Assembly: GCF_001424485.1 (NCBI RefSeq)
Contig: NZ_LMQC01000022.1
Span: 62,001 to 126,000 of the forward strand
Length of the DNA: 64,000 nucleotides
Reading direction: 5' to 3'
DNA from: Modestobacter sp. Leaf380
Lineage (GTDB): Bacteria > Actinomycetota > Actinomycetes > Mycobacteriales > Geodermatophilaceae
This document shows, piece after piece, positions 53,162-64,000 of this stretch (positions are counted from its first letter, which is position 1; each line of letters opens with the position of its first letter). The notes under the pieces were generated by a model. The model worked only from the letters and a program-made list of their open reading frames with translations. It did no database searches and was not told the DNA's origin. Both the position numbers and the translations under genes were made by a program.

Positions 53162-53211
53162 CCCCCGCACCCCTCGCGTCCCCCGTCCCTGCTCCCTCCA
53201 GGAGGCCTGCT

Positions 53212-54696
53212 GTGCCTGACTCCACCGGTTTCCTCAAGTTCGAGCGGGCCACCCCGCCGCGGCGTCCGGTCGACGTCCGGATCCGGGACTGGAAGGAGGT
53301 CTACCTCGAGCGCCAGCAGGGCGGCGAGGAGGCCTTCGGGACGGCGGCGCTGCGCACCCAGGCAGCGCGCTGCATGGACTGCGGCATCCCGTTCTGCCAC
53401 CACGGCTGCCCGCTGGGGAACCTGATCCCCGAGTGGAACGACCTGGTGCGCCGCGACGACTGGCGGGAGGCCGTCGAGCGGCTGCACGCCACGAACAACT
53501 TCCCGGAGTTCACCGGGCGGCTGTGTCCGGCGCCCTGTGAGGGCTCCTGCGTGCTCAACCTGAACGAGTCACCGGTGACCATCAAGCAGGTCGAGGTCGA
53601 GATCATCGACCGCGCCTTCGCCGAGGGCTGGGTGGAGCCGCAGCCGCCGGCCGAGCTGTCGGGCAAGAAGGTCGCCGTCGTCGGCTCGGGGCCCGCAGGT
53701 CTGGCCGCCGCGCAGCAGCTGACCCGGGCCGGCCACGAGGTCACCGTGTACGAGCGGGCCGACGCCATCGGCGGGCTGATGCGCTACGGCATCCCCGAGT
53801 TCAAGATGGAGAAGCGCCACCTGGACCGCCGGCTGGACCAGATGCGTGCCGAGGGCACCCGGTTCGTCACCGGTGTCGAGGTCGGGGCCCCCGGCTCGGA
53901 CCTGTCGGTCGAGCAGCTGCGTGCCGACTTCGACGCCGTCGTGCTGTCCGGTGGCGCCACCATCGGCCGGGACCTCCCGGCCCCGGGTCGCGACCTGGCG
54001 GGCATCCACCTGGCGATGGAGTTCCTGCCCGGTGGCAACCGGCAGGCCCTGGGCCTGGTCGACCGGCCCGAGATCGACGCCCACGGCAAGCACGTGGTGA
54101 TCATCGGCGGCGGTGACACCGGCGCGGACTGCCTGGGCACCTCGCACCGGCAGGGTGCGGCCTCGGTCGCGCAGCTGGAGATCATGCCCGAGCCGCCGTC
54201 CTCGCGGGGACCGAAGAACCCCTGGCCCACGTACCCGATGGTGCTCAAGGTGTCCTCCGCGCACGAGGAGGGCGGTGACCGGCTCTACTCGGTCAACACC
54301 GAGCGCTTCGTGGGCGACGAGGACGGTCACGTCCGGGCCATCGCCGTGCACGACGTGGAGATGGTCGACGGCAGGTTCACCAAGGTCGAGGGCACCGAGC
54401 GCGAGCTCCCCGCCGACCTGGTGTTCCTGGCCATGGGCTTCACCGGTGCGCAGAAGGAGGGCCTGGTCGAGGGCCTCGGCGTCGAGCTCGACGCCCGCGG
54501 CAACGTGGTCCGGGACGCCGAGTTCATGTCCACCGTCCCCGGGGTCTTCGTCGCCGGTGACGTTGGCCGGGGCCAGTCGCTCATCGTGTGGGCCATCGCC
54601 GAGGGTCGCGCCGCCGCCGGCGCCGTCGACACCTGGCTGACCGGTTCCTCGATGCTGCCCCGTCCGATCACCCCGACGGCGGTCGCGCTCCGCTGA
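53212..54696 (+). CDS. gltD: Glutamate synthase small subunit
   Basis: A 494-residue FAD/NADPH-binding subunit that feeds electrons to GltB. Cysteine motifs for 4Fe-4S clusters ([17 protein letters not shown] and CPAPCEGSC) are near the N-terminus, the FAD motif is [17 protein letters not shown], and the NADPH motif is [18 protein letters not shown] at 53212 has AGGAGG 6 bases upstream. A terminator hairpin follows. Confidence 0.97.
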
Positions 54697-54702
54697 CGTC
54701 TC

Positions 54703-54737
54703 GGCCCGGCCCGCCGCGATCGTCGGTGGGCCGGGCC
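54703..54737 (+). terminator. Hairpin terminator after gltBD
   Basis: Perfect 10-base arms GGCCCGGCCC (54703-54712) and GGGCCGGGCC (54728-54737), 15-base loop, 7 bases after the gltD stop. Confidence 0.75.
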
Positions 54738-54741
54738 AGGT

Positions 54742-54758
54742 GGACGTCCTAGACGTCC
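54742..54758. promoter_or_regulatory. Inverted repeat upstream of pyk
   Basis: GGACGTC-CTA-GACGTCC has perfect 7-base arms and a 3-base centre. It lies about 70 bases upstream of the pyk -10 box and could be a regulator site. Confidence 0.45.
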
Positions 54759-54826
54759 CCCTGGAACACCGGTGGGACGCGTGTGCTCCCATGTGGGGTT
54801 GGTCCTGGACCGCCTCCCTGACCGGC

Positions 54827-54832
54827 TAGGTT
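54827..54832 (+). promoter_or_regulatory. pyk: Leaderless-type -10 box of pyk
   Basis: TAGGTT ends 8 bases before the ATG at 54840. It supports that ATG over the upstream TTG in the same frame. Confidence 0.65.
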
Positions 54833-54839
54833 GTGCACC

Positions 54840-56255
54840 ATGTCCCGTCGCGCCAAGATCGTCTGCACCCTGGGCCCCGCCGTGGGCACCGCCGAGCAGA
54901 TCACCGCCCTCGTCGAGTCCGGCATGGACGTCGCCCGGCTGAACTTCAGCCACGGCGAGCACGCCGACCACGAGCGCAACTACCACCTCGTCCGGCAGGC
55001 CTCGGACGCCGTGGGCCGTGCCGTCGCCGTCCTGGCCGACCTCCAGGGCCCCAAGATCCGCCTCGGGCGCTTCGCGGACGGGCCGGTCACCTGGGCCACC
55101 GGCTCCCGCGTGTGCATCACCGTCGAGGACGTGATGGGCACGGCCGAGCGGGTCGGCACCACCTACAAGAACCTCGCCAACGACGTCCGTGTCGGTGACC
55201 GGCTGCTCGTCGACGACGGCAACCTGTCCCTCACCGTGGTCGAGGTCGACGGGCCCGACGTGTGGTGCCTCGTCCTCGAGGGCGGCGTCGTGTCCAACAA
55301 CAAGGGCCTGTCGCTGCCCGGGGTCGCCGTGAGCGTCCCGGCGATGAGCGAGAAGGACGAGGAGGACCTCCGGTTCGCCCTGGGCCTCGGGGTCGACTTC
55401 ATCGCGCTGTCCTTCGTGCGCCGCGCCGAGGACGTCGAGCTGGTGCGCGAGATCATGCGCCAGGTCGACGTCGACCTCCCGGTCATCGCCAAGCTGGAGA
55501 AGCCCGAGGCCGTCGAGAACCTCGAGGCGATCGTGGAGGCCTTCGACGGCATCATGGTCGCCCGCGGCGACCTGGGTGTGGAGCTGCCGCTGGAGCAGGT
55601 CCCGCTGGTCCAGAAGCGCGCCGTGCAGGCCGCCCGTGAGCGCAACAAGCCGGTCATCGTCGCCACCCAGATGCTCGAGTCGATGATCAACAACTCGCGA
55701 CCCACGCGGGCCGAGGCCTCCGACGTCGCCAACGCGGTGCTCGACGGCGCCGACGCGGTCATGCTGTCCGGGGAGACCTCGGTCGGGAAGTTCCCCATCG
55801 GCGCGGTGCGCACGATGGAGCGCATCATCGACGCCGTCGAGACCGACGAGGTCCGCGTGCCGGCCCTGGTGCGCCAGTCCCGGTCCCGCTCGGGCGCCAT
55901 CGTCAAGGCCGCCCGCGAGGTCGGCGAGGCCCTGGACGTCGACGCGCTGGCCGCGTTCACCATGACCGGTGACACCGTCCGCCGCCTGGCGGCCCTGCAC
56001 ACCCGCCTGCCGATCCTGGCCTTCACCACCGACCCCCGGGTCCGCAGCCGGATGGCGCTGTCGTGGGGCGTGGAGACGTTCCTGGTCCCCGAGGTCGGGC
56101 ACACCGACGACATGGTCGGGCAGGTCGACTTCTCGCTGCTGTCGATCGGCCGGCTCAAGGAGGGCGACCGGGTGGTCGTCGTGGCCGGTTCCCCGCCGAA
56201 CATCCAGGGTTCGACGAACCTGGTCCGGGTCCACGAGATCGGTCAGCATGCGTGA
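54840..56255 (+). CDS. pyk: Pyruvate kinase
   Basis: A 471-residue glycolytic enzyme that makes ATP and pyruvate from phosphoenolpyruvate. RRAKIVCTLGPA opens the fold; the catalytic lysine is in VIAKLEKPEAVEN; MVARGDLGVELPLEQVP and ATQMLESMI, with the MLSGETSVGKFP loop, are intact. The C-terminal regulatory domain is complete. tesB overlaps its stop by 4 bases. Confidence 0.97.
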   Translation: MSRRAKIVCTLGPAVGTAEQITALVESGMDVARLNFSHGEHADHERNYHLVRQASDAVGRAVAVLADLQGPKIRLGRFADGPVTWATGSRVCITVEDVMGTAERVGTTYKNLANDVRVGDRLLVDDGNLSLTVVEVDGPDVWCLVLEGGVVSNNKGLSLPGVAVSVPAMSEKDEEDLRFALGLGVDFIALSFVRRAEDVELVREIMRQVDVDLPVIAKLEKPEAVENLEAIVEAFDGIMVARGDLGVELPLEQVPLVQKRAVQAARERNKPVIVATQMLESMINNSRPTRAEASDVANAVLDGADAVMLSGETSVGKFPIGAVRTMERIIDAVETDEVRVPALVRQSRSRSGAIVKAAREVGEALDVDALAAFTMTGDTVRRLAALHTRLPILAFTTDPRVRSRMALSWGVETFLVPEVGHTDDMVGQVDFSLLSIGRLKEGDRVVVVAGSPPNIQGSTNLVRVHEIGQHA

Positions 56256-57118
56256 CTGAGTCCCCGGCGGCTGCGCTCCTCGAGGTCCTCGACCTCGAGG
56301 AGCGGTCCCCGGACCTGTACGTGGGCCGGACGCCGAGCACCCCACTGCAGCGGGTGTTCGGCGGTCAGGTCGCGGCCCAGGCCCTCATGGCAGCCACCAG
56401 GACGGTCCCGGCGGACCGGGGGGTGCACTCGTTGCACTCCTACTTCCTGCGGCCCGGTGACCCGCACGAGGAGATCCGCTACGAGGTGGACCGCATCCGT
56501 GAGGGGCGGTCCTTCTCGACCCGCCGGGTGGTGGGGCGCCAGACCCGCAAGGGCGAGGACGTCGCGGTGTTCGCGCTGACCGCGGACTTCACCGCGGGGG
56601 AGGCCCCGGTGGTGGAGCACTCGCTGCCGATGCCGCAGGTGCCGGGCGCCGAGACGCTGCCGGGCATCGACGAGGTCAGCGCCGCCCACCCGGGCCGCGC
56701 CACCGGGGCCCGGGCGTTCGCCGGCGTCGTCGAGCAGCGCTTCCTCGAGGACCCGTTCGACCCGGCCCCCAAGACCCCGCCGCACACCCAGAGCCACACC
56801 TGGTTCCGGGTCACCGGCCGGCTGCCCGACGACCCGGGAGTGCACGCCGCCGCGCTGACCTTCGTCTCCGACCTCACCCTGCTGTCGGCCGGGCTGGCCC
56901 GGATCGGCGGCGGTTGGGGCGGGGACCACGTGGGCGCCTCGCTGGACCACGCCGTCTGGTTCCACCGCCCCCTGCGCGCCGACGGCTGGTTCCTCTACGA
57001 GACCGACAGCCCGGCCGCGGCGTCGGGCCGGGCGATGAACCTGGGCCAGATCTGGGCCGCCGACGGCACGCACGTGGCGACCGTCGCCCAGGAGGGCCTC
57101 ATCCGCTCACTCGGCTGA
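56252..57118 (+). CDS. tesB: Acyl-CoA thioesterase II
   Basis: A 288-residue double-hotdog thioesterase that hydrolyses acyl-CoA esters. RVFGGQVAAQALMAA, SLHSYFLRPGDP and the C-terminal ASLDHAVWFHRP followed by GRAMNLGQIW match TesB; the catalytic Asp is in the SLDHAVWFH segment. Coupled to pyk by GTGA, a linkage common in actinobacteria. Overlaps the convergent decarboxylase by 12 bases. Confidence 0.95.
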   Translation: MTESPAAALLEVLDLEERSPDLYVGRTPSTPLQRVFGGQVAAQALMAATRTVPADRGVHSLHSYFLRPGDPHEEIRYEVDRIREGRSFSTRRVVGRQTRKGEDVAVFALTADFTAGEAPVVEHSLPMPQVPGAETLPGIDEVSAAHPGRATGARAFAGVVEQRFLEDPFDPAPKTPPHTQSHTWFRVTGRLPDDPGVHAAALTFVSDLTLLSAGLARIGGGWGGDHVGASLDHAVWFHRPLRADGWFLYETDSPAAASGRAMNLGQIWAADGTHVATVAQEGLIRSLG

Positions 57119-58825
57119 GCGGGAGGACTCCTCGTCCGGGGCGGTGACGGTGCCCTCGGCCGGGACGTCGGCGTCGACGGGTGCGGCGGTGGTGCCGTCC
57201 ACCTGCTCGACCTCGGCCACGGTCTGGAACTCCACGGGCTCGGGCTGCACCGCCTCGGCGGCTGCCCGGGCCACCTCGGCCTCCTGCGCGATCGCGGCTT
57301 CCCGCTCAGCGGCCTGGCGCTCGGCGGTGTCGCGGGCTTCTCGCTCAGCGGCCTTCTTCGCCGCCGCTGCCTCGGCGAAGTCGTTGGCCAGCCAGTCGTG
57401 GCCCTCGCGCAGCAGGGTCCACAACCGCTCGACGTGCCGACGCTCGGTGGCGGGGGAGCCGATGGCCACCCGCAGCACCACCTCGCCGGATACCGTGGTG
57501 TGCGTCAGGTACACCTCTCCGCCGTCGGAGAGCCGGTCCAGCAGCGTCATGGTGGCGACGTCGCCGTCGACGCCGTACGGCCACCGGGGCTTGAGGACGA
57601 CGAGGGAGAGCGGGTGCGGGGCGACGACGTCGAACCGTTCGTCGGCGCCCACCCAGGCGGCCAGTTCCTGGGCCAGGGCGACGTGTCCGCGGACGTGCTC
57701 GCGCAGCCCCTCGGCGCCGTACCAGCGGACCACGAACCACAGCTTGAGCGCCCGGAAGCGCCGGCCCAGCTCGATCTGCCAGTCCCGGTAGTCCACGACC
57801 GCGCCGCTCTCGGTGGCGGCGTTGCGCAGGTACTCCGGCAGGATCGCCAGGGCGCCGGTGAGCGAGGCCCGGTCGGCGGTGAAGAACAACGTGGCGTCGA
57901 AGCCGGTCAGCAGCCACTTGTGCGCGTCGGTGGTGTAGCTGTCTGCCCACTCGACGCCCTCCTGCAGGTGGCGCAGCTCCGGGGCGACCGCAGCCGCCCC
58001 GGCCCAGGCGGCGTCCACGTGCAACCAGACCCCGCGGTCCCGGCAGATCGGCCCGATCTCGGCCAGCGGGTCGAAGGCACCGGTGGACGTCGTCCCGACC
58101 GTGGCGCAGACGAGCACCGGGGTGAACCCGCGGGCGACGTCCCGGTCGATGCGGGCGGCCAGTGCCTGCGGGCGCATGGCCAGGTCGCCGTCGACCTCGA
58201 CGATGCGGACGGTGTCAGTGCCCAGGCCGGCGATCCGGGCGGCCTTCTCCATGCTGGAGTGGGTCTGCGCCGAGACGTAGACGGTCATCTCGCCGGGGGA
58301 GACCCCGCCGCGCACCGTGCCCCCGCCGGTGGCCCGGTGCAGGGCCGCGAGCAGCGCGACGAGGTTGGCCCCGGAGCTGGAGTCCTGCACCACGCCGCCA
58401 CCGGTGCTGTCGTGCCTGTAGGTGGCGGGCAGTCCGAGCAGGTCGACGAACCAGTCCATCACCTGCTGCTCGAGCTCGGTGGCCGCCGGGCTGGTCACCC
58501 AGGACATGCCCTGCACGCCCAGCGCGGAGCTGACCAGGTCCCCGAGCACGGAGGGCCCGGAGGTGTTGGCCGGGAAGTAGGCGTAGAAGCCGGGGTGCTG
58601 CCACTGCGTCAGCCCGGGGACGACGACCCGGTCCAGGTCGGCGAGCACGGCGGCGAAGGGCTCGCCGGCCTCGGGTGCGGCGTCGGGCAGCAGGGCCGCG
58701 ACGTCACCGGGGGAGACCTGCGAGCGCACCGGCAGCGACTCGACCCGGCCGAGGTGGTCGGCGATCCAGTCCACGACCTCGTGGCCGTGCGCGCGGAACT
58801 GCTCGGGGGTCATGTGGCCGGTCAC
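57107..58825 (-). CDS. PLP-dependent group II decarboxylase (aromatic amino acid type) with acidic C-terminal tail
   Basis: A 572-residue enzyme. The PLP lysine is in TTDAHKWLLTGFD and the pocket HVDAAWAGAA lies before it; TQWQHPGFYAYFPAN and SSSGANLVALLAAL are typical of aromatic-L-amino-acid decarboxylases. Residues 1-475 match the family length. The last 95 residues are Ala/Glu/Lys-rich, first helical (AAKKAAEREARDTAE) and then acidic, not part of the enzyme fold. The GTG at 58825 has TAGGTT 7 bases upstream. It probably produces a biogenic amine; the substrate (Tyr, Trp, Dopa or other) cannot be read from sequence. Confidence 0.92.
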   Translation of the reverse strand: MTGHMTPEQFRAHGHEVVDWIADHLGRVESLPVRSQVSPGDVAALLPDAAPEAGEPFAAVLADLDRVVVPGLTQWQHPGFYAYFPANTSGPSVLGDLVSSALGVQGMSWVTSPAATELEQQVMDWFVDLLGLPATYRHDSTGGGVVQDSSSGANLVALLAALHRATGGGTVRGGVSPGEMTVYVSAQTHSSMEKAARIAGLGTDTVRIVEVDGDLAMRPQALAARIDRDVARGFTPVLVCATVGTTSTGAFDPLAEIGPICRDRGVWLHVDAAWAGAAAVAPELRHLQEGVEWADSYTTDAHKWLLTGFDATLFFTADRASLTGALAILPEYLRNAATESGAVVDYRDWQIELGRRFRALKLWFVVRWYGAEGLREHVRGHVALAQELAAWVGADERFDVVAPHPLSLVVLKPRWPYGVDGDVATMTLLDRLSDGGEVYLTHTTVSGEVVLRVAIGSPATERRHVERLWTLLREGHDWLANDFAEAAAAKKAAEREARDTAERQAAEREAAIAQEAEVARAAAEAVQPEPVEFQTVAEVEQVDGTTAAPVDADVPAEGTVTAPDEESSRSAE

Positions 58826-58831
58826 CCCACG

Positions 58832-58837
58832 AACCTA
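58832..58837 (-). promoter_or_regulatory. Leaderless-type -10 box of the decarboxylase gene
   Basis: TAGGTT on the minus strand ends 7 bases before the GTG at 58825. Confidence 0.65.
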
Positions 58838-58898
58838 TGCCGCCCGGCGTGCGACCACCGCGCCCCACCCCGGCGGACGGCCACGGGGTGCTCCTGTG

Positions 58899-58971
58899 TG
58901 CCCCCGGTCCGATTCGAACGGACACTGTGCGGGTTTTGAATCCGCTCCCTCTGCCATTGGGGTACGGGGGC
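58899..58971 (-). tRNA. tRNA-Leu, anticodon CAA, short variable loop
   Basis: A 73-base cloverleaf: acceptor GCCCCCG/CGGGGGC, T8-A9, a 3-bp D stem CCC/GGG with AATGGCAGA in the loop, anticodon stem GCGGA/CCCGC with an A31-C39 mismatch, loop TTCAAAA (anticodon CAA, positions 34-36), variable loop ACAGT, T arm GTCCG-TTCGAAT-CGGAC, discriminator A73. No CCA is encoded. CAA reads UUG leucine codons. Leucine tRNAs normally have a long variable arm; this one has five bases. Located between the decarboxylase and pdtaR-like genes. Confidence 0.88.
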
Positions 58972-59032
58972 CCCGACCGGCAGCCTACGGCGCGGTGCCC
59001 GTCGGGGTGAGCACGTGCCCCGGTGGGCTCGA

Positions 59033-59038
59033 TAGGGT
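59033..59038 (+). promoter_or_regulatory. Leaderless-type -10 box of the pdtaR-like gene
   Basis: TAGGGT ends 7 bases before the GTG at 59045. Confidence 0.65.
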
Positions 59039-59044
59039 GGACGG

Positions 59045-59647
59045 GTGAGCAACGAGCCAACCCGGGTCCTCATCGCCGAGGACGAGGCACTGATCCGCCT
59101 CGACCTCAAGGAGATGCTGGAGGAGGAGGGTTACCTGGTCGTCGGCGAGGTCGGGGACGGTCAGGCCGCCGTCGACCAGGCCCGTGAGCTCCGTCCGGAC
59201 CTCGTGGTGCTCGACGTGCAGATGCCGGTCCTGGACGGCCTGTCGGCCGCCGAGCAGATCGCTGCGTCGCGGATCGCCCCGGTCATCGTGCTGACCGCCT
59301 TCAGTCAGCGCGAGCTGGTCGAGCGGGCCCGCGACGCGGGCGCCATGGCCTACCTGGTCAAGCCCTTCTCCAAGGCCGACCTGGTCCCTGCCATCGAGGT
59401 GGCCCGGGCGCGCTTCGTCGAGATGACGGCCCTGGACGCCGAGGTGGGTGACCTCAAGGAGCGGCTGGAGGCCCGGAAGGTCGTCGAGCAGGCCAAGGGC
59501 AAGCTGATGGCCGACCGCGGGATCACCGAGGCCGAGGCCTTCCGCTGGATCCAGCGGACCGCGATGAACGAGCGCACCTCCATGAAGGCCCTCGCCCAGG
59601 TCGTGCTGTCCGGCGACGCGGGCCCGGCAGAGACCCCGACCGCCTGA
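59045..59647 (+). CDS. pdtaR: Response regulator with ANTAR RNA-binding output domain
   Basis: A 200-residue regulator. The receiver domain (about 7-120) has the acidic pocket AEDE, the phosphorylated Asp in VVLDVQMPVLDG, Thr in VLTAFS and Lys in LVKPFSK. The ANTAR domain (about 128-185) carries LEARKVVEQAKGKLMAD and AFRWIQRTAMNERTSM. Such proteins bind paired RNA hairpins and prevent termination once phosphorylated by a PdtaS-type kinase, which is not in the window. Position near pyk, tesB and liv genes is typical of actinobacteria. Confidence 0.94.
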   Translation: MSNEPTRVLIAEDEALIRLDLKEMLEEEGYLVVGEVGDGQAAVDQARELRPDLVVLDVQMPVLDGLSAAEQIAASRIAPVIVLTAFSQRELVERARDAGAMAYLVKPFSKADLVPAIEVARARFVEMTALDAEVGDLKERLEARKVVEQAKGKLMADRGITEAEAFRWIQRTAMNERTSMKALAQVVLSGDAGPAETPTA

Positions 59648-59821
59648 GTCTCCGCTGCCCCCGGTCGACGGTCAGCCGGCCCGGGTCGCTCCGGGCCGCT
59701 CCGGGTCGTCCCGGGTGACGGTCGTGTTTCGGCGTGTCCCGGGTGTCACGATCGGTGGCGTCTCAGGTCACAACCCCATCACGGTGCGCCTCAGGGCCCC
59801 TGTGGCGGTGCGCACCACGGC

Positions 59822-59827
59822 TAGGTT
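59822..59827 (+). promoter_or_regulatory. -10 box of the liv binding-protein gene
   Basis: TAGGTT lies in the 259-base gap after the pdtaR-like gene; the transcript leader would be about 73 bases with GGGAG before the GTG at 59907. A small GC hairpin (59677-59684 with 59691-59698) after the pdtaR-like gene may terminate it. Confidence 0.5.
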
Positions 59828-59906
59828 CCTCGCACTGGCAGGTCGGTTCCGGGTTGCCCCGGTCCGCATCCTGCGGAGCGATGAACCACCACGACTGGGA
59901 GTCACT

Positions 59907-61253
59907 GTGAAGCGCACTGGCAAGTTCGCCCGCGCCGTGGCCGTCTCCGGCGTCGTCCTGATCGCTGCCTCCGCCTGTGGCGGCGGCGGCGACGAGGACA
60001 CGTCGGGCAGCGGCAGCGGCAGCACCGGGGGCAGCGAGGAAGCCGTCACCAACATCTACGGCTCCGACGGCAACATGGGTTCGGCTCTGGGTGACCAGTT
60101 CACCGACGGCGGCGCCCTGGCCGGCATGAAGGGCACCACCCCGCTGACCGACCTGTCCGGTGACTTCAAGTCGCGTCTGGACGCGCTGAACCCGGACCTC
60201 GGTGGCACCTACAACTACGCGGGTGAGTCCTACGACGCCGTCATGCTGAGCGCCCTGGCCGCCGTGGCCGCCGGCTCCAGCGACGCCACGGTGTTCGCCC
60301 CCTACATCAACGGCCTGACCACCGGTGGGGAGGCCTGCTCGGACTTCGCCTCCTGCCTGGCCATCCTGTCCGCCGGCGGGAACGTCGACTACGACGGCCC
60401 GTCCGGCCCGCTGGACTTCACCGAGGCCGGTGAGCCCTCCGTCGCCAGCTTCGGTCTGCTGCAGTTCGGCGAGGACAACGCGATCGACGACTCGCTCACC
60501 GAGTTCCAGATCGCCGGCGACGACTCGCAGGCGGCCGGCGACGACACCCTGCCGATCGCCCCGGCCGGCACCACCGGTGACCCGCTGACCATCGGCACCC
60601 TGCTCCCGCTGACCGGTTCGCTGGCCTTCCTCGGCCCGCCCGAGGTCGCCGGTGTGCAGCTCGCCGTCCAGGAGATCAACGAGGGCGGTGGCGTCCTGGG
60701 CGCCCCCGTCGCGCTGGTGGAGGGCGACTCGGGCGACACGTCGACCGACACCGCCAACACCACGGTCGACCGCCTCCTGCAGGCCGGTGCCAACGCCATC
60801 ATCGGCGCGGCCTCGTCCTCGGTCAGCCTCACGGTCATCGACAAGATCACCGCGGCCGGTGTCGTCATGTTCTCCCCGGCGAACACCTCCGACCAGTTCA
60901 CCGCCTACAACGACAACGGCCTGTACTTCCGCACCGCTCCGGCGGACGTGCTGCAGTCGGTCCCGCTGGCGGACCTGGTCGTCGGTGACGGCAACACGAC
61001 CGTCGGCATCCTGAACCTCAACGACGCCTACGGCACGGGCCTGGCCACCAACGTGACCGCGAACCTGGTCGACGGCGGTCTGGCCGAGGACGACATCATG
61101 CAGATCACCTACGACCCCACGGCGTCGTCCTACGACTCCGAGGTCCAGTCGATGGTGGACTTCGCCCCCGACGCCATCGTCGTGATCGGCTTCGACGAGT
61201 CGGCTCGCATCATCCAGGAGCTCAACGCCCAGGGCATCGGCCCGGCGCGCTGA
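59907..61253 (+). CDS. livK: Branched-chain amino acid ABC transporter binding lipoprotein, circularly permuted
   Basis: A 448-residue type I periplasmic binding protein. The signal (KRTGKFARAVAVSGVVLIA) and lipobox ASAC with Cys24 are normal, followed by a Gly/Ser linker. Residues about 50-202 (NIYGSDGNMGSALGD to DSLTEFQIA), including a GEACSDFASC pair, are the segment that normally ends a LivK protein. A linker (203-225) leads to PLTIGTLLPLTGSLAFLGPP, normally the mature N-terminus, and the protein ends at IIQELNAQGIGPAR, which normally continues into the YGSDGN segment. All parts are present but in swapped order, so the fold could still form. GTG at 59907 follows GGGAG. livF lies nearby on the other strand. 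Confidence 0.9.
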   Translation: MKRTGKFARAVAVSGVVLIAASACGGGGDEDTSGSGSGSTGGSEEAVTNIYGSDGNMGSALGDQFTDGGALAGMKGTTPLTDLSGDFKSRLDALNPDLGGTYNYAGESYDAVMLSALAAVAAGSSDATVFAPYINGLTTGGEACSDFASCLAILSAGGNVDYDGPSGPLDFTEAGEPSVASFGLLQFGEDNAIDDSLTEFQIAGDDSQAAGDDTLPIAPAGTTGDPLTIGTLLPLTGSLAFLGPPEVAGVQLAVQEINEGGGVLGAPVALVEGDSGDTSTDTANTTVDRLLQAGANAIIGAASSSVSLTVIDKITAAGVVMFSPANTSDQFTAYNDNGLYFRTAPADVLQSVPLADLVVGDGNTTVGILNLNDAYGTGLATNVTANLVDGGLAEDDIMQITYDPTASSYDSEVQSMVDFAPDAIVVIGFDESARIIQELNAQGIGPAR

Positions 61254-61277
61254 TCTCGAGCACCTGATCTCGAGCAC
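61250..61277. repeat. 14-base tandem duplication over the livK stop
   Basis: CTGATCTCGAGCAC occurs at 61250-61263 and 61264-61277, followed by CTGA again. The first copy contains the TGA stop of the permuted binding protein. It may be a scar of the rearrangement that made the permuted gene. Confidence 0.9.
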
Positions 61278-61301
61278 CTGAGCGACGCACTCCCGCACCA
61301 C

Positions 61302-61338
61302 GGACGGCCCGGTTCCCCAGAGGGGAGCCGGGCCGTCC
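61302..61338 (+). terminator. Terminator after the liv binding-protein gene
   Basis: A 17-bp stem (61302-61318 with 61322-61338) containing one G-U pair, closed by a 3-base loop. No U tract. Confidence 0.8.
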
Positions 61339-61428
61339 TGCGTGTGGGCTCCGGGGCGGCCGGGCGCGTGCCCGCGCTCACGCCCGGGGAGGGCCGTCCG
61401 GCCGGGGTGCGGGTGGGACGATGGGCCG

Positions 61429-62295
61429 GTGACCGCAGCCCCCGTGACCGACCTGGAGGGGCCCTCGCTGAGCCGCCGTCAGGAGCTGGGCGCCGCCAGC
61501 GCACGCAGCCTCCTGCTGACCGTGCTGGGGGAGTTCGTGCTCCCGCGCCGTGAGCCCGTCTGGACCTCGACGCTCCTCGAGCTGCTGGCCGACCTCGACG
61601 TGGCCGAGAAGGCCGCCCGGCAGGCGCTCATGCGCACCGCGGACGACGGCTGGACCGTCGGACGCCGCATCGGTCGGGAGACGCGGTGGGACCTCACGGA
61701 GGCGGGCACCCGCCTGCTGGAGGAGGGCACCGAGCGCGTGTACGGCTCCGCCTCGGCGGAGCGGCCCTGGGACGGCAGCTGGTTGGTGGTCACGGTGTCT
61801 GTGCCGGAGAACGCCCGGGCGCTGCGACAGCGGCTGCGGACCCGGCTCGGCTGGGCCGGGCTCGGCGCCTCGAGCCCCGGCGTCTGGGTCAGCCCACGCC
61901 CCGACCGGGAGGCCGAGGTCGCCCGGGTGCTGTCGGAGCTGGGGCTGACCGAGGGCAGCTGGTCCTTCGTGGCCAGGGCCGGACAGGTCGGCGACGAGAG
62001 GTCCCTGGTGCGCAGCGCCTGGGACCTGGACGCCATCGAGGGCCGGTACGAGGACTTCCTGGAGCTGGTGGGGTCGCGGCGGCCGCGCACCGACCGCCAG
62101 GCGCTCGTCGCCCAGGTGAGGTTGGTCCAGGAGTGGCGGCGGTTCCCGCTGCTGGACCCGGGCCTGCCGCGTGAGCTGCTGCCGCCGCGCTGGAGCGGCA
62201 ACCGGGCCGCCCAGGTGTTCCGTGAGCGGCACGCCACCTGGGCACCGCGTGCCGCGGCCGCCTGGGACGAGCTGGCAGGCAGCCGCACCACCTGA
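61429..62295 (+). CDS. PaaX-family transcriptional regulator
   Basis: A 288-residue regulator. A winged helix at about 20-100 (SARSLLLTVLGEFVLP, AARQALMRTADDGWTVGRR) is followed by the PaaX central domain with WDGSWLVVTVSVPE and a C-terminal domain with RFPLLDPGLPRELLPPRW. PaaX repressors usually respond to phenylacetyl-CoA; no paa genes are in view, so the effector is unknown. The GTG at 61429 follows GACGAT (61417-61422) by 7 bases. Confidence 0.92.
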   Translation: MTAAPVTDLEGPSLSRRQELGAASARSLLLTVLGEFVLPRREPVWTSTLLELLADLDVAEKAARQALMRTADDGWTVGRRIGRETRWDLTEAGTRLLEEGTERVYGSASAERPWDGSWLVVTVSVPENARALRQRLRTRLGWAGLGASSPGVWVSPRPDREAEVARVLSELGLTEGSWSFVARAGQVGDERSLVRSAWDLDAIEGRYEDFLELVGSRRPRTDRQALVAQVRLVQEWRRFPLLDPGLPRELLPPRWSGNRAAQVFRERHATWAPRAAAAWDELAGSRTT

Positions 62296-62326
62296 GCCCC
62301 GGGGGTCCCCACCGGGTCCGGCGGCC

Positions 62327-62752
62327 TCAGCCCAGGACGAGCCACCCGGCCGCGAGGACGCCCGCCGTGGCTGCGACCACCCGGACGGTGTCCACGCGCA
62401 GCAACCGGCGGTGGGCCCCGGCGTCCCAACCGGAGTCCAGCACCCGGTGCAGCGGGACCGCGGCCAGCGCGGTCACCCCGAGCACGACCGCGAGGCAGCC
62501 GGCGCCGGCCAGGACGGGTCCGGCCGGGACGGCGCCGCGCAGGGCCAGCACCAGCAGCCAGACCGTCGTCACGCCCTGACCGGCGAACAGCGGCCCGACC
62601 ACCCGGGTGACGCGCTGCTGGTGCGCCCGCTCGTAGGCCGCGAACCCCGCACCGACCCCGGCGAACTGGGGGTAGACGAGCACCCGGACGGTCCACTGGA
62701 AGCCGGCGTAGGCGGCCACGAGCACCAGGTGGGTGACGGCGAGGGCGGTCAC
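62327..62752 (-). CDS. Small four-TM membrane protein, unknown function
   Basis: A 141-residue protein with hydrophobic segments at about 4-22, 52-72, 78-98 and 120-140. Between segments 1 and 2 lies a conserved-looking polar stretch VYPQFAGVGAGFAAYERAHQ; between 3 and 4, PLHRVLDSGWDAGAHRRLLRVD. I do not recognise a characterised family. GTG overlaps the stop of the upstream gene by 4 bases. Confidence 0.75.
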   Translation of the reverse strand: MTALAVTHLVLVAAYAGFQWTVRVLVYPQFAGVGAGFAAYERAHQQRVTRVVGPLFAGQGVTTVWLLVLALRGAVPAGPVLAGAGCLAVVLGVTALAAVPLHRVLDSGWDAGAHRRLLRVDTVRVVAATAGVLAAGWLVLG

Positions 62753-63063
62753 CGGCCCTTGGCCGGCTTCCCGCGCCAGGCCAGGCTCTGCCGGTCCAGC
62801 TCGCGCAGCAGCGGGTCGCCCTCGTCGTCGATGCGTTCGGCCAGCGCCACGGCGGTGGCCAGCCCGGTGTCGTCGAGCTGGGTGAAGGCAGGGGAGCGGC
62901 GCCGGTCCAGCACGTCGTACCAGCGGGCACCCACTGCGTGGTCGAGCACGATCCGGCCGAAGCAGTGGTCGGAGGTCACGACCCAGCGCTCGGCCCTTGC
63001 TCGGGCGGGGAGCCGGTCGAGCACGAGCTCCCGGTAGCGGGCCAGCAGCTGCTCGCGGGTCAC
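62749..63063 (-). CDS. Small conserved-looking cytosolic protein, unknown function
   Basis: A 104-residue protein starting TREQLLARYRELVLDRLP. The core WVVTSDHCFGRIVLDHAVGARWYDVLDRR has a DHCFGRI motif and is followed by an acidic helix. No family recognised. It shares a 4-base overlap with the membrane-protein gene downstream, so the pair is an operon. A strong hairpin separates it from livF. Confidence 0.72.
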   Translation of the reverse strand: MTREQLLARYRELVLDRLPARARAERWVVTSDHCFGRIVLDHAVGARWYDVLDRRRSPAFTQLDDTGLATAVALAERIDDEGDPLLRELDRQSLAWRGKPAKGR

Positions 63064-63076
63064 CAGCCCAGGACAG

Positions 63077-63121
63077 CACGACGCCGGCCGCCCCGCACGG
63101 GGACGGCCGGCTGGTGTCGTG
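63077..63121 (-). terminator. Compound hairpin terminator after livF
   Basis: Nested arms CACGAC (63077-63082) with GTCGTG (63116-63121), GCCGGCCG (63083-63090) with CGGCCGGC (63104-63111), and CCCC (63091-63094) with GGGG (63099-63102), with one bulged A. It begins 4 bases after the livF stop. Confidence 0.8.
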
Positions 63122-63125
63122 TTCC

Positions 63126-63980
63126 CTACTGGGCCTTGGCCAACGTCCCCAGGTAGAGCTCGATGACCTTGGGGTCGTTCATCAGCGACTTGCCGGTGTC
63201 GGTGTAGGCGTTGCGGCCCTGGTCGAGCACGTAGCCGCGGTCGCAGATCTGCAGGCACCGGCGGGCGTTCTGCTCGACCATGATGATCGAGACGCCGGTG
63301 GCGTTGATCCGCCGGCAGCGGATGAACACCTCGTCCTGGTAGGCGGGGGACAGACCGGCCGAGGGCTCGTCGAGCAACAGCACCGACGGGTCCATCATCA
63401 GCGCCCGGCCCATCGCCACCATCTGCCGCTCGCCGCCCGACAGCGACCCGGCCTTGCCCTTGCGCCGCTCACCGAGCAGCGGGAACAGGTCGATGACGTA
63501 GTCGAAGCGGTCCTTGAACGTCTTCGGGCGCAGGTACACGCCCATCTGCATGTTCTCCTCGATGGTCAGCGCGGGGAACACGTTGTTGTTCTGCGGCACG
63601 TACCCGACGCCCAGCTGCACCAGCTTGTGCGCCGGGGCCGAGGTGATGGTCTCCCCGCGCAGCGTCACCGCACCCGAGCGGACCGGGATGAGCCCGAAGA
63701 GGGTCTTCAGCAGCGTCGACTTCCCGGCCCCGTTGGGGCCGATGATGCCGACCAGCTCGCCGTCCTGCAGGTAGAAGTCGCAGCCCCGCAGGATGTTGAC
63801 CCCCGGCACGTAACCGGCGACCAGGTCGTCGGCCCGGACCAGGGCGCCCTCCGCGAGCTTGAGGTGCTCCTCGCGAGTGGCGGCCTTCTCGGCCGGGGAC
63901 AGCTCGGCGGCCGAGGACGCGGTGTCGGCGCGGGTGAGGTCCTCGCCGGTCTCGTCGACCTCGAACAGCGGCTCGCTCAT
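63126..63980 (-). CDS. livF: Branched-chain amino acid ABC transporter ATP-binding protein
   Basis: A 284-residue ATPase of the LivF type that powers import of branched-chain amino acids with LivG/H/M. Walker A GPNGAGKST, signature LSGGERQM, Walker B LLLDEPSAGLSP and the H-loop region IIMVEQNARR are intact. About 45 acidic N-terminal residues precede the usual start (VRADDLVAGYVPGVNIL). ATG at 63980 has GGAGAA upstream. It is the last gene of an operon entering from the right edge. Its binding protein is probably the permuted gene at 59907, encoded on the other strand. Confidence 0.94.
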   Translation of the reverse strand: MSEPLFEVDETGEDLTRADTASSAAELSPAEKAATREEHLKLAEGALVRADDLVAGYVPGVNILRGCDFYLQDGELVGIIGPNGAGKSTLLKTLFGLIPVRSGAVTLRGETITSAPAHKLVQLGVGYVPQNNNVFPALTIEENMQMGVYLRPKTFKDRFDYVIDLFPLLGERRKGKAGSLSGGERQMVAMGRALMMDPSVLLLDEPSAGLSPAYQDEVFIRCRRINATGVSIIMVEQNARRCLQICDRGYVLDQGRNAYTDTGKSLMNDPKVIELYLGTLAKAQ

Positions 63981-64000
63981 CGCTTCTCCGTCCCGTCGCT

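Follow-up and report, generated by a model that had tools for sequence, protein, structure and literature searches.

An open reading frame of the window (i.e. the whole 64,000-nucleotide stretch of Modestobacter sp. Leaf380 DNA that was analysed) encodes a binding protein of LivK/Peripla_BP_6 kind and lipoprotein type, in which the C-terminal part stands ahead of the N-terminal part. We consider it very probable that the gene product is a working substrate-binding lipoprotein of LivK type (type I, Peripla_BP_6) serving the LivFGHM importer, permuted in place via tandem duplication, and that such events have been recurrent. The frame (59907–61253 on the forward strand) has a GTG start and 448 codons followed by a stop, and was assigned as a circularly permuted LivK-type protein from its translation, Pfam matches and a reordering test. 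A lipoprotein signal peptide (59907–59978, +) was read from the translation and ends at lipobox Cys24 (i.e. ...VLIAASAC); a lipobox-like motif was found upstream in 191 of 196 permuted reading frames, some of which are repeats of one gene. A Gly/Ser/Glu tether (59979–60053, +) leads from the lipidated Cys to the new first strand, with AlphaFold2 pLDDT values below 50 for residues 1–29 and 33–42. Half B (60054–60521, +; residues 50–205) is the ordinary LivK C-terminal part, here placed first, and reads YGSDGNMGSALGD... through DSLTEFQIA (residues about 50–203). The old C-terminus is connected to the old N-terminus by a linker of about 22 residues (60516–60581, +; residues 204–225) with the sequence GDDSQAAGDDTLPIAPAGTTGD, for which no counterpart within ordinary LivKs was seen in the alignment and across which the modelled block has pLDDT values of 85–97. 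Half A (60582–61250, +; residues 226–448) is the ordinary N-terminal part, here placed last, and runs from PLTIGTLLPLTG... to IIQELNAQGIGPAR before the stop. The sequence-only reading of this gene had given its order as signal peptide, a segment ending in DSLTEFQIA, linker and old N-terminal segment, and the translation confirmed this order within one frame.

The Pfam profile PF13458 matched the native protein over residues 226–446 only, equivalent to profile positions 1–217 of 343, and this partial match scored 115 bits against a curated cut-off of 31.7. The native protein also matched PF01094 and PF13433, while residues 1–211 alone matched no Pfam family at E 0.001. Reordering of the halves in silico extended the PF13458 match to positions 1–325 of 343 in one piece with a score of 126.5 bits. 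The match to 4gnr (LivJ) covered residues 4–300 for the reordered protein (E 1.6e-18) as compared to residues 228–444 for the native order (E 6.1e-14). Alignment to an ordinary LivK, as proposed in the sequence-only reading, was non-collinear: residues 204–448 of the window protein aligned to residues 73–313 of the G057 protein with 56% identity and residues 50–197 to residues 316–461 with 41% identity, i.e. with the halves swapped. The NCBIfam LivK model PRK15404 gave 59.5 bits for the native protein, below its cut-off of 477, as were the scores of the reordered sequence (58.6) and of the ordinary-order G057 relative (67.7). As the N- to C-terminal order of the family is replaced by swapped halves, the protein was classed as a permuted variant and not as an ordinary Peripla_BP_6 member, and this swap explains why the standard profile catches only half of such proteins. 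Sequence, synteny, phylogeny and structure prediction all support the proposal that a LivK-type receptor was circularly permuted in nature, with the signal peptide kept and the old termini spanned by a linker.

Structure prediction, another of the suggested checks, produced a confident AlphaFold2 model of the permuted chain (pLDDT 89.6, pTM 0.86). Half B was modelled alone for the structure comparison because sequential aligners are unable to display a whole permuted match. Alignment to solved LivK/LivJ structures placed half A on their N-terminal part and half B on their C-terminal part. The break had been expected where the chain crosses from lobe 2 to lobe 1. This is probably not its position, as the model puts it in a helix-to-strand loop between the last helix (residues 432–441) and the new first strand (residues 49–52). 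On the LIVBP/LBP topology, the break would lie in lobe 2, one strand-helix unit ahead of the crossover, and the crossover is presumably where the Acidimicrobiia version described below breaks. The lipid anchor has most likely been relocated to lobe 2 of a working LivK. Residues Y51, D54, G55 and N56, adjacent to the cut, are invariant in six permuted proteins from clades I–III (see below). We take the conserved Asp of YGSDGN to correspond to the acid that binds the ligand in LIVBP, D54 being presumably equivalent to Glu226, which holds the ligand amino group; on this assignment the tether would now end a few residues from a ligand contact.

Conservation of the permuted order was examined in relatives. 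When 397 genomes of the order were sampled, the permuted order was present at full length in 67 of the 75 Geodermatophilaceae genomes (family f1) listed, with 62–100% identity across residues 1–3 to 447–448. A search of 60 relatives produced 28 full-length own-family loci (L001–L028), all in permuted order, plus fragments and weak matches. A scan of named genomes, for which the best 80 of at least 572 relatives were kept, recovered Geodermatophilus, Blastococcus, Modestobacter, Klenkia and Goekera followed by Micromonospora, Acidimicrobiia and a single member of Nitriliruptoria. Every one of the 81 livK reading frames from these 80 relatives was permuted, a figure that is no estimate of frequency since the query was itself a permuted alignment. 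The same order was present in single-contig genomes (e.g. G005 and G010). Misassembly of the window genome, against which a comparison with relatives had been advised, is refuted by the occurrence of this order in dozens of independent assemblies (i.e. the 67 own-family genomes and many named records), and the probability of an artefact is now negligible. The permutation, expected to be rare in the sequence-only reading, is also not a rarity of one genome, being family-wide and having arisen more than once. Nine permuted pairs exhibited dN/dS values of 0 to 0.40 in both halves, indicating that permuted livK is under purifying selection. The proposed search for an unpermuted livK was performed on the window genome with the window protein at E 0.001 and returned the gene itself as the sole match, so that no close ordinary livK was found there. 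Second permuted livK genes, approximately 60% identical to that of the window, were observed away from the liv locus in Klenkia genomes G005 and G002 (loci L036 and L112), and second matches of 58–59% identity occurred in G001 and G006.

The gene lies in a recognisable liv locus. Its upstream neighbour, in the window and in many compared loci, is an ANTAR response regulator (59045–59647, +; Pfam Response_reg and ANTAR), for which we assume a pdtaR-like name. Downstream, livF, encoding the importer ATPase (63126–63980, −), was identified from gene order and from NCBIfam, in which LivF PRK11614 was the top match (E 3e-57, with 193.8 bits against a model cut-off of 441), with livG, livM and livH next on the same strand beyond the window. 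The order pdtaR, livK, then livF, livG, livM and livH on the opposite strand, then polA, recurs across families; at this locus livK is permuted in the own family and ordinary in families f8 and f10 and in some f15 and f4 genomes. Comparison of the locus with relatives, as recommended in the sequence-only reading, thus shows an ordinary LivK in the same place in sister families, indicating that the resident gene was either permuted or replaced in place. All eight own-family genomes without livK were also without a close livF, the best match being of 44% identity in two of them and nothing being detected at E 1e-60 in the other six. The shared locus, this joint loss and the low dN/dS values together indicate that the permuted livK is used, and with the LivFGHM importer. 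The permuted protein is most likely still the receptor of the LivFGHM amino-acid importer.

Other features of the locus were variable. A PaaX-type regulator (61432–62295, +) separates livK from livF in the window, whilst in several relatives livF follows livK directly. A comparison of window positions 53200–64000 with L033 gave the liv genes a mosaic appearance: livK, livM and livH were closer to Goekera (84–87, 81 and 84%, respectively) than to Klenkia taihuensis (70–76, 74 and 80%), and gltD, pyk, pdtaR and polA were closer to Klenkia (92–94%). Recombination of the liv cluster is a possible reading of these identities.

Permuted genes were also detected outside the own family, namely in f13 (one genome), f16, f39, f41 and genus g168 of f49, with many other families having ordinary genes. 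In f41, a full-length permuted match was present in 10 of the 94 matching genomes (149 searched), and ten permuted and ten ordinary genes were read whole. More distant members of the phylum (f81, f68 and f99) also have ordinary genes, f81 having both kinds. Two breakpoints were distinguished. At the first, found in three separate clades (I–III), the same short loop is opened, with the protein stopping after the GIGP region and starting before YxxDGN. The second, located approximately 20 residues beyond the first, occurs in Acidimicrobiia (Ilumatobacteraceae, Microthrixaceae and Acidimicrobiaceae) and Salsipaludibacter, whose proteins terminate in ...VYGVDGNMGNALGENFDAGK, or in a closely similar sequence, and begin with the following conserved motif, GMKGTxP. 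In clades II and III, each linker resembles the lineage's own C-terminal tail plus the GDG-type tether that precedes the ordinary mature N-terminus. The linkers of f1, f13 and f16, which constitute clade I, have a common AGDE-like start, favouring a single origin of this clade. Two entries were left unclassed: L175 (G936), where half A alone is present and abuts a contig end, and G058, of which just the last part of half A was seen, ending in a stop as permuted genes do. L261, which seems frame-shifted in half B, was retained. A search of plasmids returned two records in which both halves were covered. In an Acidimicrobiales MAG, a 990-residue frame (L281:1031–4000, +) contains an Hsp70 match at residues 48–394 and then a permuted LivK domain, with a membrane-like segment (judged by eye) between the two domains and a second permuted livK adjoining.

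The number of origins was assessed using trees and AU tests. The alignments comprised 79 of 108 rows (family f1 being thinned), 83 of 148 rows (thinned by identity) and, for the final tree, 115 rows after removal of 13 family rows, L300 and L315; these 115 rows consist of 74 ordinary genes, 28 genes cut at the first site and 13 cut at the second. The groups 'all permuted' and 'first breakpoint' were fixed by trait, and all other tested groups were named after a tree had been seen. Four changes of order were needed on the 79-row tree, and forcing its 34 permuted rows together cost 150 log-likelihood units (p 3.6e-80). Well-supported branches of the 115-row tree forced a minimum of five switches of order. 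A single clade was rejected both for the 41 permuted rows of this tree (p 5.8e-78) and for its 28 first-breakpoint rows (p 1.7e-103). Among the groups named after a tree, unions of clades I and II (p 1.3e-4), of clades II and III (p 3.0e-4) and of clade I with the Acidimicrobiia group (clade IV; p 0.0025) were rejected, and that of Salsipaludibacter (clade V) with Acidimicrobiia was weakly rejected (p 0.021), such that Salsipaludibacter may or may not represent a fifth event. The permuted f41 rows formed one clade (99/96) within a clade (100/100) of otherwise ordinary f41 genes. One origin for clade I was not rejected in three AU tests (p 0.592, 0.473 and 0.374). Trees of the separate halves were weakly resolved and required six (half A) and seven (half B) changes of order, with half A alone splitting clade I and half B alone splitting clades II and IV. 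We interpret these phylogenies as reflecting at least three permutation events and probably four or five.

One ancient origin is accordingly a rejected candidate (p 3.6e-80 and 5.8e-78 in the two tests of all permuted rows). A broader version, in which a single early permutation in Actinomycetota was followed by several returns to the ordinary order or by horizontal spread of the permuted gene, draws on the ordinary f8 genes, which fell beside or inside clade I in each of four trees, so that this clade may or may not have a single origin and the polarity between it and f8 may run either way. It also draws on the larger clade (99/88) that clades I and IV share with f8, and on the unlinked positions of the diverged permuted copies of Micromonosporaceae-type genomes (L034, L081 and L100–L106). 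We nevertheless regard it as decidedly improbable, given the rejection of a common clade, the different breakpoints of clade I and Acidimicrobiia, the clade II and III linkers built from tail and tether of their own lineages, and the location of most permuted genes at the ancestral locus. Alternatively, with no tandem duplication involved, the halves could have become separate genes by fission and later been joined in reverse order. The separate alignment of the halves, the new linker and the existence of half-length matches (e.g. G029, G031, G035 and G936) would fit such a history. Several of the half-length matches, part of which were checked, end at a contig end, however, and tandem whole-gene copies occupy the locus in four genomes, making this route rather unlikely.

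A different alternative concerns function, with the permuted protein acting as a sensor or orphan binding protein and not as an importer receptor. The unlinked second copies of some Klenkia, the Micromonosporaceae-type genomes and one Acidimicrobiales gene in which a permuted LivK domain is fused to an Hsp70-like one all lend it some weight. Six Micromonosporaceae-type genomes carrying a permuted copy were searched: three (G050, G357 and G093) were without a close livF and in the other three (G250, G353 and G372) livF sits with an ordinary livK, indicating that partnership with LivFGHM is not universal and that these copies possibly have other roles. A further point against the favoured reading is Klenkia G005, in which livF is placed some 9 kb away from livK. 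We hold the sensor or orphan alternative to be very unlikely: in the own family, livF is present in the fetched stretch of 90 of the 102 family loci (counting genome repeats, and with short or second copies accounting for several of the 12 loci without it), and livK and livF were lost together in eight of eight genomes.

Evidence on the route of permutation came from neighbouring livK copies at the liv locus. Ordinary pairs occur in G827 and G527, G978 has a permuted copy with an ordinary copy directly after it, two permuted copies adjoin livF in tandem in L281, and neighbouring livK matches were also present in G690 and G498. Such tandem copies, in one case permuted beside ordinary, point to duplication plus partial deletion. 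Within g168, G938 has an ordinary gene, G978 has both and eight other genomes have permuted genes, which is the pattern that differing resolution of a tandem pair would produce. No single reading frame with a repeated half (i.e. A-B-A or B-A-B) was found in the small sample of loci examined, and nothing obvious in the way of second-livK remnants was seen in the livK–livF gap of g168 (f49) when its listed reading frames were read by eye. In the permutation in place that we favour, livK would have been duplicated in tandem at its locus; the first copy would have lost its N-terminal half internally with retention of the signal peptide, and the second its signal peptide and C-terminal half, thereby fusing the mature C-terminus via the old tether to the mature N-terminus. 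The resulting chain would still close as a two-lobed Venus fly-trap, passing a small amino acid, with a branched-chain one as the most likely predicted ligand, to LivHM. Its lipid anchor would now be carried by the final lobe 2 strand, slightly ahead of the YGSDGN Asp, and other Actinomycetota would have undergone this rearrangement on their own, with the cut in this loop or in the next one. A more speculative extension, which we put forward tentatively and hold to be possible but not probable, is that the liv locus of Actinomycetota is a hot spot for permutation, in which four or five independent events cut on either side of one strand-helix unit adjoining the binding site and hinge and were selected through LivHM docking or the speed of opening and closing. 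If so, relocation of the anchor to lobe 2 or, in the Acidimicrobiia form, the opening of one hinge strand would alter docking or kinetics.

A 14-base tandem duplication (61252–61279, +) begins inside the livK stop codon. The sequence-only reading had noted a duplication of this length and taken it as a hint of recombination; its existence stands, and its interpretation as a trace of the permutation does not. It is absent from the four relatives compared (G016, G338, G020 and G002) and starts inside the stop codon, for which reasons it is a local feature and was rejected as a scar of an older permutation. A different short tandem repeat is present at the same place in K. taihuensis.

Ordinary LivK/LivJ proteins of the HAAT family (PF13458; e.g. 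3td9, 4gnr, 1usg and 2liv) are a reference for the permuted protein. They have the same halves and export type, the same linkage to LivF, LivG, LivM and LivH and, by prediction, the same fold, but differ in the order of the halves, the termini, the linker and the position of the anchor. No permuted LivK was found in the literature searched, in which subscription papers were mostly missing, and PMC2861598 contains no permutation terms.

TpMglB-2 (Tp0684) from Treponema pallidum comes closest as a precedent, being likewise a type I binding lipoprotein that is circularly permuted in nature (the fold being predicted in the present case). According to the accessible part of its description, TpMglB-2 binds glucose and changes shape on binding, belongs to a proposed class 'Type Ic / Cluster Bc' with relatives in treponemes and Gram-positive bacteria, and may have been permuted for reasons of tethering (PMC4990184). 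Whereas TpMglB-2 is a sugar-binding, MglB-related protein in which the first three N-lobe strands (i.e. the last ~100 residues) were moved to the C-terminus (PMC4990184), the window protein matches PF13458 and has ~220 residues moved (profile positions 1–217 of 343) with another cut than that of Type Ic. By this comparison of cut positions, permuted LivKs appear kin to Type Ic in kind and are not members of it. The two cases also differ in divergence, the permuted part of TpMglB-2 being 13% identical to MglB in the portion of the source available, as against identities of 36–66% (half A) and 30–57% (half B) between the window protein and 92 ordinary proteins. Relative to what that portion describes, LivK further differs in having many ordinary counterparts at the same locus and several origins, and it is this recurrence that we call the surprising part.

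A permutation family is also formed by glycine betaine- and molybdate-binding proteins and CysB, which are presumably of the type II fold. This family was found by structure with CPSARST and represents deep relationships (<24% identity) in other families, with no recent in-place events described in the accessible text (PMC2395249). Tandem duplication followed by a new start and stop is the classical model of permutation in the available part of a further source (PMC3320104), and tandem copies are indeed present at the locus in relatives; retention of the old signal peptide means that an internal deletion is needed beyond that model. Inferences of natural circular permutation mostly concern deep, single events, whereas permuted and ordinary LivK receptors occur side by side within a single phylum and in many cases at a single locus, their better-conserved halves being up to approximately two-thirds identical. 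Permuted LivKs thereby also offer natural templates for permuted amino-acid biosensors. The close natural pairs, several origins, two neighbouring breakpoints and tandem pairs of this system make the mechanism, repeatability and adaptive value of circular permutation directly testable.
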